The notes under the pieces were generated by a model that was not told the origin of the DNA, searched no databases, and worked only from the letters and a program-made list of their open reading frames with translations. This document shows positions 4,702 through 46,013 of a DNA stretch of 64,000 nt, one piece after another (the stretch's first letter is position 1; each line of letters begins with the position of its first letter). A program made the position numbers and the translations under genes. The stretch is from Hexactinellida sp. DTS-2022 (Eukaryota > Porifera > Hexactinellida): positions 4,774,001-4,838,000 of the forward strand of contig JAPNXP010000004.1 of assembly GCA_028753945.1 (NCBI GenBank), read 5' to 3'.

Positions 4702-6143
4702 TCAGTCCCTATCAATAAACTTATGCAGAAACGCATCCAACTTCTCATATGCCTCGAGTGTAGCATTCAATCTAATGTTTGGTGGCAGAATTGTAAAGAA
4801 CCCATGAAACATTTTCTGACTCATAAAATACTCTACTTGGCCCCCACTCTGCTCAAACCGTTCCTTCAGCAGCTGTCCTTCTGTCAGCAGCACGTCGTAT
4901 TCCGCGCTTATAACCAGTGTGGGGGGAGTCCTGAGAAGTCTGACTGAAACAGGAAAGTGGTGTACGCAAGGAATTATCCAGGAGCGCGAGACGCTCCTTT
5001 TGGAGCATGATTTTTGGAAAATTTGAATTTAGGAGCGCGAAAATTTGGAATCCTCTCCTATATCGTAACATTAATTTGTGATTTCGGCGTATGAAAATTG
5101 TATCAGACCAGGATTAGGAGCGTTTTTATAAATGGCTGTATAGTACACTGGGTGTACGGGTCCAGGAGCTTGTCAGCGTAGCGAGAGTACGCAGCAACCA
5201 TGGATGCCGTCGGTTCCCAATCTATAGCAGGCAATAAGTGTGGATATACAGTCTGTCTCTCTTTGTAGTGTTTGCTTAGCAGAGGAAGTCTCGAGTTAAT
5301 AATGAGAGGATACAAATCGACAGAACCGTGTAATAACAGAGATATATAAGTAGCTAGTAAAGATGTTGAGATTAACCTTGGTTGATTCTCCTTTTTATGG
5401 AAAGATTCCAAATCCCAATTAACAAATTGAACCCACGGGTATATAAGGGACATGGATAGGAGAGGGGCGTATTTATGAGTGTATTCTTTCCACTTAAATG
5501 CTATGTATAAAGATAAGTGCGACCCAAAACTGTCACCTCCTATTGAAACGCGGTTCGGATCAATTCCAAACTTTTCGGTATTATCGAATAGGTGTGTTAC
5601 TATTTTTAGACATTCTTCGTGTGGAGTTGGGATTAACACCCCTGGACTTAGAGGGTAGTTTGGTGTTATTATCTTTATTCTCATTTTGTGCGACAAATAT
5701 CGCATCGAAGCGTCGTATAACTTGGGAGAGAGCTTGACCCCACCTCCCCCATGGAAATACACTAGCGAGGGTAGATAGGATTCGTGCAGTATGTCATTGG
5801 GGGTGTGTATAAACACCTGGTGTCCGTTTATCTCCCAAACCTGTGTCGTAACCGGAAGAAGAGTCAGGTTTGGAGAAGTGAAATATAGAGAAGTATTCTG
5901 CTCTCCCCTGTCCAATAAATAACGGAAACTAGAATTAAAGTCGACCAATCCCCACCTGGCCAGATAGCCTATAAAGTGTATCTTTGCATCTGTAACGAGT
6001 GGGACCAGAGACAGAAATAATATATCCGGACAGCTTAGCTCACGGTGTTCCTTCTCCTTATCACAGCCGTAATATACCTTATAGAACCCACACGCTACTA
6101 ATACTACTGATACAGCAATGCCCAGCCAAACACGATTCAACAT
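4702..6143 (-). CDS. AADAC/NCEH1-like alpha/beta hydrolase, coding exon split by a MITE
   Basis: Membrane-anchored carboxylesterase of the arylacetamide deacetylase family, which hydrolyses ester or amide bonds of lipids and drugs on the ER lumenal side. The 5' part (6143 down to about 5151) encodes an N-terminal signal anchor (residues 5-25), the oxyanion HGGGG (131-135) and the nucleophile elbow GDSFG (Ser205). The 3' part (about 4958 to 4702) encodes AEYDVLLTEG with the acid Asp and MFHGFF with the catalytic His. Between them sits a 184-bp I-family MITE (4967-5150) flanked by an 8-bp duplication. Unspliced read-through stops inside the MITE (stop at 5103) and loses Asp and His. A donor in the MITE end (ACCCA|GTGTAC) and acceptor (GTCAG|A) just past it would rejoin the frame. 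The pre-insertion sequence has a one-base deficit in a C run (4921-4926 on the plus strand). It may be a gene with a MITE-derived intron or a recent pseudogene. Confidence 0.75.
4967..5150. mobile_element. I-family MITE inserted in the hydrolase coding sequence
   Basis: Starts CAAGGAATTATCC and ends GTACACTG. The perfect 8-bp repeat GGTGTACG flanks it (4959-4966 and 5151-5158), a hAT-style target duplication. Inner text includes GGAGCGCGAGACGCTCC and GATCAGACCAGGATTAGG-type sequence shared with the other I copies. Confidence 0.9.
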
Positions 6144-19992: not shown

Positions 19993-20541
19993 TTAATTTA
20001 GACAATCACATGCGTCTTGGGAAGTAACAAAATTCTCCTTTTTATTTGGAATTTTATTTTTGATCATCCAACCAAATGCAAAGTAACCAGTGCCCAAGCC
20101 AAGTACTACAGCTAAAAATAACCAAAGGTTAAACGTCATAGTAATCAGCATTAGCAGATACCCGACTATGTACTGAATTGTCTGTAGTATCGATAGCACT
20201 GTGTGTCCGATTAATTCGTTCAAATTGCTGTTTGCCTTAGTACGCCTTTGTGCCGTTTGTGCGTCATTGGTTGGCAAAAGCGGTTCGTATTTACCTCCAC
20301 TTTCGTCGGTTTTTATAACAGTTTTCGGTGAGATAATAGAAAGATTTAGCGTTTTAATGAAAGAGTTGACGTATTCGCGAAATATTTTCAATCCCTCGCT
20401 TAGAATTGCGCATATAAATATTCCGATAAAAGCAACTACCATTTGCCCGGGCGTTTGAACATGAAACTCCTCGAATAGGATAAATACATCTGTGTTTGTT
20501 GTGAAAAACATACGCATTCCCATTGTCATGTTCATATGCAT
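19993..20541 (-). CDS. CTR-type copper transporter, copy 1
   Basis: A 182-residue high-affinity copper uptake protein (CTR/SLC31 family), which imports Cu(I) as a homotrimer at the plasma or endolysosomal membrane. The N terminus is Met-rich (MHMNMTMGMRM), the copper-capture feature. The first membrane helix follows FHVQTPGQMVVAFIGIF. Helix 2 contains the pore MxxxM (MLITM) and helix 3 a GxxxG packing motif (GLGTG). The C terminus ends ACDCLN, a Cys pair comparable to the metal-binding HCH of other CTRs. Single exon. A second copy in inverted orientation is at 23779-24324; this one has one extra Met in GWMIKNK. The two coding sequences differ by a few silent changes and one codon. Confidence 0.92.
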   Translation of the reverse strand: MHMNMTMGMRMFFTTNTDVFILFEEFHVQTPGQMVVAFIGIFICAILSEGLKIFREYVNSFIKTLNLSIISPKTVIKTDESGGKYEPLLPTNDAQTAQRRTKANSNLNELIGHTVLSILQTIQYIVGYLLMLITMTFNLWLFLAVVLGLGTGYFAFGWMIKNKIPNKKENFVTSQDACDCLN

Positions 20542-20715
20542 TTTGGAAAGATAGGAAAATTATTTATGGAAATCTAGGATAATTGTATAGTATTTATTGA
20601 ACGCTAAGTAAATGCATATAATCAGTTTTAATAACAGGAAACCATTTTTGAGATAAATAAACTGCTTTACACTGAAATTAATTTGGGTGAGGAGGAAAAA
20701 TGTAAAATTATTACT

Positions 20716-23219: not shown

Positions 23220-23778
23220 CCTTAATTTATTGCCAATTCTCAGCCTGGAGTTCCTTATAAAGGTGTTCCTTATTTTAAAAAAACGTGTATAGAAAGATAA
23301 GTAATATAATACAATGGATACAGGAAATTTTTCTCTAGTGAAAATGTTTGTGGGAACAAAAACCATACCTTCACTCACTAATAAGGCAATGCAAAGTTAT
23401 CACTTTTCGCTCATTAGACAATCCAGACAAAATAGTGTGCGCTTTATAACAAACTTATATTTAAATTTGATTAATTTAAATTATTTAATTATACAAATCA
23501 AATCACAAGTTTAAATAACTGTGTTCGAAGTTACTCTAATTTTCCTCTTTTGAAATGAATAATCTCAATTGAAGTAACTGGGTGTATTCTTCCCAATTTG
23601 GACAATGAAGAGAATCAAAATAATTTTACATTTTTCCTCTTCACCCAAATTCTTTTCGGTGTTACTAAAGCAGTTTATTTATTTCAAAATGGTTTCTATT
23701 ATTATGCATATAGTATAATAAATACTTTTATATACAATTATCCTAGATTTCCATAAATAATTTTCCTATCTTTCCAAA

Positions 23779-24324
23779 ATGCATATGAACATGACAATGG
23801 GAATGCGTATGTTTTTCACAACAAACACAGATGTATTTATCCTATTCGAGGAGTTTCATGTTCAAACGCCCGGGCAAATGGTAGTTGCTTTTATCGGAAT
23901 ATTTATATGCGCAATTCTAAGCGAGGGATTGAAAATATTTCGCGAATACGTCAACTCTTTCATTAAAACGCTAAATCTTTCTATTATCTCACCGAAAACT
24001 GTTATAAAAACCGACGAAAGTGGAGGTAAATACGAACCGCTTTTGCCAACCAATGACGCACAAACGGCACAAAGGCGTACTAAGGCAAACAGCAATTTGA
24101 ACGAATTAATCGGACACACAGTGCTATCGATACTACAGACAATCCAGTACATAGTCGGGTATCTGCTAATGCTGATTACTATGACGTTTAACCTTTGGTT
24201 ATTTTTGGCTGTAGTACTTGGCTTGGGCACTGGTTACTTTGCATTTGGTTGGATCAAAAATAAAATTCCAAATAAAAAGGAGAATTTTGTTACTTCCCAA
24301 GATGCATGTGATTGTCTCAATTAA
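23779..24324 (+). CDS. CTR-type copper transporter, copy 2
   Basis: A 181-residue CTR/SLC31 protein identical to copy 1 except that it lacks one Met (GWIKNK). It has the same Met-rich N terminus, MLITM pore motif, GLGTG helix-packing motif and ACDCLN tail. I find about four synonymous differences over the frame (for example GAC/GAT in the DACDC segment) plus the 3-base indel, whereas the 150 bases upstream differ far more. This suggests gene conversion or strong constraint on the coding block. Both copies are intact and could both be expressed. The copies are oriented with their 5' ends facing each other across about 3.2 kb. Confidence 0.92.
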   Translation: MHMNMTMGMRMFFTTNTDVFILFEEFHVQTPGQMVVAFIGIFICAILSEGLKIFREYVNSFIKTLNLSIISPKTVIKTDESGGKYEPLLPTNDAQTAQRRTKANSNLNELIGHTVLSILQTIQYIVGYLLMLITMTFNLWLFLAVVLGLGTGYFAFGWIKNKIPNKKENFVTSQDACDCLN

Positions 24325-45671: not shown

Positions 45672-46013
45672 CAGTGGTGTTCGCCTGATAGCAATATTAT
45701 TGCTCTATTAGCAAGTTATTTTCAGTCCCCAAGCGAGCATTTAATGTTAATTCTGTTCCTCTAATATCAAGTTCAGTGTATTATACAGCCATTTGTAAAT
45801 ACGCTCCTAATCCTGGTCTGATCCAATTTCATACGCCTAAATCACAAATTAATGTTGCGGTATAGGAGAGGATTCCAAATTTTCGCGCTCCTAAATTCAA
45901 ATTTTTCAAAAATCATACTCCAAAAGGAGCGTCTCGCGCTCCTGGATAATTCCTTGATCAAGTTCGCCTAACAAATTTCGTGCAAAATGCAACGTGTTAA
46001 GAGAACACCACTG
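45672..46013. mobile_element. D-family MITE split by an I-family MITE
   Basis: TA-flanked D ends CAGTGGTGTTCGCC and GAGAACACCACTG. The I element is 45774-45956. The D element ends 29 bases upstream of the LRGUK start codon. Confidence 0.85.
45774..45956. mobile_element. I-family MITE with perfect 8-bp target duplication
   Basis: ATCAAGTT at 45766-45773 is repeated at 45957-45964. Ends CAGTGTATTATACAGCC and GGATAATTCCTTG, defining the 183-bp family unit. Confidence 0.9.

Follow-up and report, generated by a model that had tools for sequence, protein, structure and literature searches.

In the window (the whole stretch of 64,000 nucleotides of Hexactinellida sp. DTS-2022 analyzed here), a serine hydrolase gene of the AADAC/hormone-sensitive-lipase (HSL) type is located on the minus strand, where it forms a single exon that starts with an ATG at 6143 and ends with a stop at 4702. 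Its 5' part (5151-6143, minus strand) comprises 331 open codons with the motifs HGGGG and GDSFG, whose roles we assume by family motif, and was delineated by its open reading frame, by alignment with paralogs and by the Abhydrolase_3 profile (PF07859 in Pfam; residues 127-272, E-value 1.7e-24). The 3' part (4702-4926, minus strand) was recognized by the same profile (E-value 3.8e-08) and by paralog alignment; it contains AEYD and MFHGFF, which we take, again by family motif, to hold the catalytic Asp and His, and then reaches the stop. Between the two parts lies a hAT-type MITE of 184 bp (4967-5150, no strand assigned), with identical copies of an 8-bp target site duplication (GGTGTACG on the plus strand) at 5151-5158 and 4959-4966, both listed on the gene strand. 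It is followed on the minus strand by the remainder of the interrupted exon in its original frame (4927-4958, TFLFQSDFSG) and by a run of six C (4921-4926).

The minus-strand frame opened at 6143 passes through the 331 codons of the gene and 15 codons of the MITE before its first in-frame stop at 5103-5105, inside the MITE, so that the predicted truncated product has 346 aa, 15 of them MITE-coded. Without the MITE and one duplicate, the gene gives DPYTTFLFQSDFSG, after which its frame slips by one base at 4921-4926. Past the C run, PPTLVISAEYDVLL...MFHGFF follows in a frame other than that of DPYTTFLFQSDFSG, and continuing the window gene with PPTLVISAEYD requires a change of frame at the run. 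The window gene is similar to AADAC and HSL hydrolases in that both of its halves match the Pfam profile and in its segments with HGGG, GDSxG, Asp and His (roles assigned by family motif), but it differs from them in that a stop and a frame change separate the Asp and His segments from the first half. A complete catalytic triad was not found in any one frame: GDSFG lies within 5103-6143, and the residues that we presume to be Asp and His lie in another frame past the stop. The original prediction, made from the letters alone, had described a MITE with a perfect 8-bp duplication between the nucleophile and Asp/His halves of an AADAC-like enzyme, a stop at 5103 inside it, and an exon that would be continuous without MITE and duplicate up to a one-base slip at 4921-4926; all of these points were borne out.

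The ends of the MITE were fixed independently by genome matches, as 33 of the 46 matches listed covered exactly positions 1-184 of the query. The genome search gave 1872 first-look candidates for the family, of which 40 were scored, and the closest other copy among these 40 was 96% identical to that of the window. In 30 aligned copies, the window copy included, the flanking duplication was 8/8 in 18, 7/8 in 3 and less in 9; some of these copies have identical duplications and probably do not represent independent cases. The terminal repeats (CAAGG... and CAGTG...) match at 8 of 13 positions in the window copy. Terminal inverted repeats starting CA..G are typical of hAT elements. At least 150 hAT dimerisation-domain matches were found in the genome (638 candidates, of which 150 were scored; no match in any of 14 control genomes), and such common domains fit a putative hAT source of the MITE.

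Compared with the consensus of 30 copies, the window MITE has six substitutions and no indels. One of these differences occurs in none of the other aligned copies and the rest in one to five others; two pairwise combinations of them were found only at the window copy in two whole-genome pattern searches, which miss copies with an additional change inside the pattern. Most of the differences thus look private, and the age of the insertion can roughly be put at no more than about 3% in substitutions (6/184), that is, recent but not brand-new. The original prediction had offered a 'freshly broken gene' as one of two readings; a broken gene is supported by our results, whereas 'fresh' has to be weakened to recent, given a MITE divergence of up to about 3%.

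Several other observations concern the window or the MITE family in general. A second copy of the family lies at 45774-45956, with identical 8-bp flanks (ATCAAGTT), between open reading frames of at least 85 codons and near exons that are LRR-like by eye. Two open reading frames of 188 and 187 codons (19996-20559 and 23761-24321), in opposite orientation and with the same first 60 residues, are copper-transporter-like by eye. A search for Wnt gave no match in the genome, but it likewise gave none in 14 control genomes and therefore says little. At 5143-5157, read on the gene strand, a short perfect inverted repeat (GTACAC CCA GTGTAC) arises where the duplication meets the end of the MITE, and the base that completes it is the MITE change absent from all the others of the 30 copies; this is probably a coincidence.

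To define the ancestral state of the insertion site, five paralogs identified in the same genome by whole-genome search (three at C7, one at C2 and one at C3) were compared with the window gene, to which they are 43-53% identical over the 5' part. Their open frames of 428-440 codons hold both halves and run through the insertion site, which reads DPYATFLFQSDFSHLPPTLILSA in the three C7 copies, SPYATFLFHKNLSFLPPTLIISA in the C2 copy and GPYATLLFQPDFSVLPHTLLIGA in the C3 copy. The stretch at 4927-4958 is aligned in all five, with TFLFQSDFS in the C7 copies, TFLFHKNLS in the C2 copy and TLLFQPDFS in the C3 copy, and solved bacterial esterases have a comparable stretch ahead of the same strand (LLATDFTGLPPAFVLTAGYD in 6i8d, for instance). 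Because the alignment of all five paralogs is unbroken here, the site was coding exon, with no sign of an older intron. At the C run, where the window gene is one base off, the paralogs have LPP or LPH in frame, and the frame change there is, on this alignment, a departure from the paralog family.

The C7 region shows some further features. Three paralogs at C7:962430-976225 have a near-identical DNA core, with 87-100% identity in most 90-base blocks, one block at 74-88% and only 46-67% in the first and last blocks, a pattern resembling gene conversion or recent segmental copying. Another relative of the C7 cluster (around C7:972632-973304; positions 1518-2361 of the stretch examined) has no matching 5' part in that stretch and carries an insertion of about 100 bases with stops and a further one of about 10 bases; it is a second broken member of the family.

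On the basis of these results, the window gene is very probably a recent pseudogene or null allele, cut before its presumed catalytic Asp and His. The anatomy and the paralogs show that the one exon of an AADAC/HSL-type gene has received a hAT-type MITE together with a duplication of 8 bp, the transposition itself being deduced from them. The gain of 192 bp is a multiple of three, yet a stop follows after 15 residues, and the product, if translated, would keep HGGGG and GDSFG and be without the Asp and His segments. A separate one-base departure from the paralogs at the C run, which may be a deletion or an assembly error and may have come before or after the insertion, puts the 3' part out of frame, and the loss was presumably tolerated given relatives with open frames. 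This reading is supported by the uninterrupted paralog frames through the site, the exact MITE ends, the 8/8 duplication and the stop at 5103, as well as by the fact that the family loses members, the relative in the C7 cluster having no 5' part and an insertion with stops. Against it count the good preservation of both halves, with the 5' part open over its full 331 codons, and the fact that one real-looking splice pair (5376->4931) would restore the frame, though with the loss of 85 codons.

It is established that a MITE insertion can produce a premature stop, as in the apricot gene ParMDO/ParM-7 with its 358-bp FaSt MITE (PMC5853662). Like the window gene, the apricot gene as described there carries within a coding exon a MITE that has terminal repeats and a target duplication, leading to a premature stop and a truncated open reading frame. 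The two cases differ in that the apricot duplications are of 9 bp and that alleles, genetics and phenotype are shown there, whereas the window gene has a duplication of 8 bp and is known from one assembly.

We also asked whether the remaining coding sequence has decayed. Leave-one-out conservation, with three choices of the C7 representative, was used instead of dN/dS because silent sites would be saturated at the 53% identity of the closest paralogs. Among the sites that do not vary in the other groups, the window gene departed at 21 of 119, 19 of 117 and 18 of 113; in the same comparisons the C2 paralog departed at 34-36 of 131-134, the C3 paralog at 29-30 of 124-128 and the C7 paralogs at 19-22 of 117. 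Since its departures at invariant sites are similar to those of the paralogs, the window gene is about as conserved as they are and was constrained until fairly recently. Under a decay model with assumed indel ratios of 0.03-0.15 and an assumed transition weight, five private MITE substitutions correspond to 2.0-5.3 expected neutral lesions in 1248 coding bases, and one lesion besides the MITE was seen. The probability of at most one further lesion was 0.03-0.41 at five private substitutions, 0.18-0.94 at one to three, 0.013-0.31 at six (0.013 with indels at 15% of substitutions) and 0.000-0.092 at ten. The upper end of these figures leans to retained constraint, though as a mild hint.

A null allele or an assembly effect, which is compatible with the broken-gene explanation, would imply that the MITE allele is one haplotype beside which an intact empty-site allele segregates, and the C6 run may be a homopolymer error. 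The whole-genome search found only one full match of the window gene in the assembly, which is in line with this idea, and one-base homopolymer changes are among the commonest sequencing and mutational indels. On the other hand, the MITE stop at 5103 stays even if the frame at the C run is intact. In that case eight splice pairs (three with GT and five with GC donors) would keep the frame, but all of them lose or add codons and never restore the original ones; the most plausible, 5108->4944, has a donor of 4.66 bits, adds nine codons and keeps SDFSG. We regard such an allele or error as possible, though on balance unlikely.

The other reading offered by the original prediction was that the MITE had become an intron, with a compensating loss of one base. 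In a broader form than that of the prediction, the MITE would be removed from part of the transcripts, either by weak splicing at or near its ends or by excision at the RNA level, the junction would cancel the one-base loss and a shortened hydrolase would be made, so that the locus would represent an intron at birth with the ancestral empty site kept in five paralogs; we consider this very unlikely. In the specific form of a newborn spliceosomal intron, spliced from 5148 to 4940 or at a nearby pair with the loss at the C run as compensation, it seems more improbable still. The suggested intron (4940-5148, minus strand, 209 bp; CCA/GTGTAC ... GTCAG/A, slashes marking the cuts) is unsupported as a feature. 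The pair does exist and does restore the frame, as had been claimed, but it also removes 17 coding bases beyond the MITE and one duplicate, and QLLRT replaces TFLFQSDFSGL, a stretch with a counterpart in all five paralogs.

For comparison, a splice model was built from introns inferred in chaperonin (TCP-1) genes of the same genome rather than from transcripts. Twenty exon junctions gave 19 candidates and one without any; four scoring below 8.9 were dropped and 15 introns of 108-1103 bp were kept, a range that includes the length of the suggested intron. The suggested donor scored 0.12 bits against 5.7-9.9 for these 15 introns (leave-one-out) and ranked 28th among 74 GTs in the gene; the suggested acceptor scored -2.65 against 0.4-11.4 and ranked 44th among 80 AGs, although a pyrimidine-rich stretch (TTTCCTGTTTCAG) lies immediately upstream of it. 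This first inference favored G at position -1. A control free of donor context was run on 19 of the 20 junctions (one C16 junction omitted), with possible introns in 14 and none in five. All nine junctions with a single possible donor had AG/GT, unlike the suggested CCA/GT; of the five ambiguous junctions, four had an AG/GT option and one (C11:417036) had none. The usual donor consensus is GTRAGT, and the MITE change unique among the 30 copies falls on intron base +6 (T->C), away from that consensus. In chaperonin genes at C1:1629996-1631594, C1:1252989-1253792 and C11:415299-418238, separate family matches are linked by one open frame through the gap between them, as would be expected of stop-free introns of 3n length.

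Frame restoration by the suggested pair carries little weight because, with donors from 5400 to 5103, 26 GT-AG pairs restore the frame, among which it ranks 10th. Better-scoring pairs include 5376->4931 (donor 6.96, acceptor 2.18, total 9.14; 85 codons removed), whose scores fall inside the range of the inferred introns, 5376->4997 (total 8.53; 63 codons removed) and 5148->4931 (total 2.30; nine codons removed), and their existence speaks in favor of splicing of some kind. None of the nine cuts that would give back the empty-site sequence has GT-AG. Thus, the idea of a MITE turned intron fared poorly, with a donor far below the inferred ones, a low-ranking acceptor and a product that loses a stretch common to the five paralogs, and a newborn intron should be considered unsupported rather than disproved.

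Introners derived from DNA transposons, with diverse recruitment of splice sites, are established, and elements that supply one of the two splice sites and recruit the second, including cases with gain or loss of codons, are described in PMC9860276, which lends the intron reading some plausibility. Like the introners of that paper, the window MITE is a non-autonomous DNA element with a target duplication in a coding exon; in contrast to them, it has no convincing splice sites and the coding sequence is not restored. A further difference from the introners described there is that repeated use of the MITE as an intron was not seen in the 30 closest copies, a test of limited power that is blind to copies in short exons. 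Among these 30 copies (of 40 scored from the 1872 candidates), only that of the window crosses an open reading frame of more than 300 codons (347 codons). The next longest, of 152 codons, is by eye a hAT-like transposase fragment, and other copies cross frames of 31 to 106 codons, several of them at 87-106, where short exons are indistinguishable from chance. One copy (L038) lies directly after what by eye appears to be a protein kinase exon.

Two RNA-level alternatives would bypass the spliceosome or the C run. SOS splicing of transposons from animal mRNAs is described in a review (PMC13247085); here, the MITE would be removed without the spliceosome and the ends joined by RTCB, leaving some functional mRNA, and GT-AG would presumably not be needed. 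However, exact removal of the MITE would still leave the frame one base off. The MITE RNA alone folds with a z-score of -0.80 (of 200 shuffles, 33 fold equally well or better), with short flanks of -1.64 and with longer flanks of -0.05. SOS splicing depends on paired terminal repeats, and it is not favored here because the MITE ends are short and imperfect, matching at 8 of 13 positions, and are unpaired with each other in the predicted fold; we consider it extremely unlikely. Rescue by slippage, namely -1 frameshifting or RNA polymerase slippage at the C6 run such that the one-base loss alone may be tolerated, is hardly credible either. The run and its neighbors (C CCC CCA) do fit X XXY YYZ, the pattern of -1 frameshifting, but the stop at 5103 would halt ribosomes within the MITE, ahead of the run, and slippage could be relevant only if the MITE had been removed or the allele had an empty site.

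If splicing were true, the locus would document the gain of an intron of roughly known age, which could be compared with ancestral paralogs. The abundance of GT-AG pairs able to restore the frame near the insertion calls for caution, as frame restoration alone is no evidence for an intron. Under the favored broken-gene explanation, the locus would provide a clean example of a gene disrupted by a MITE.
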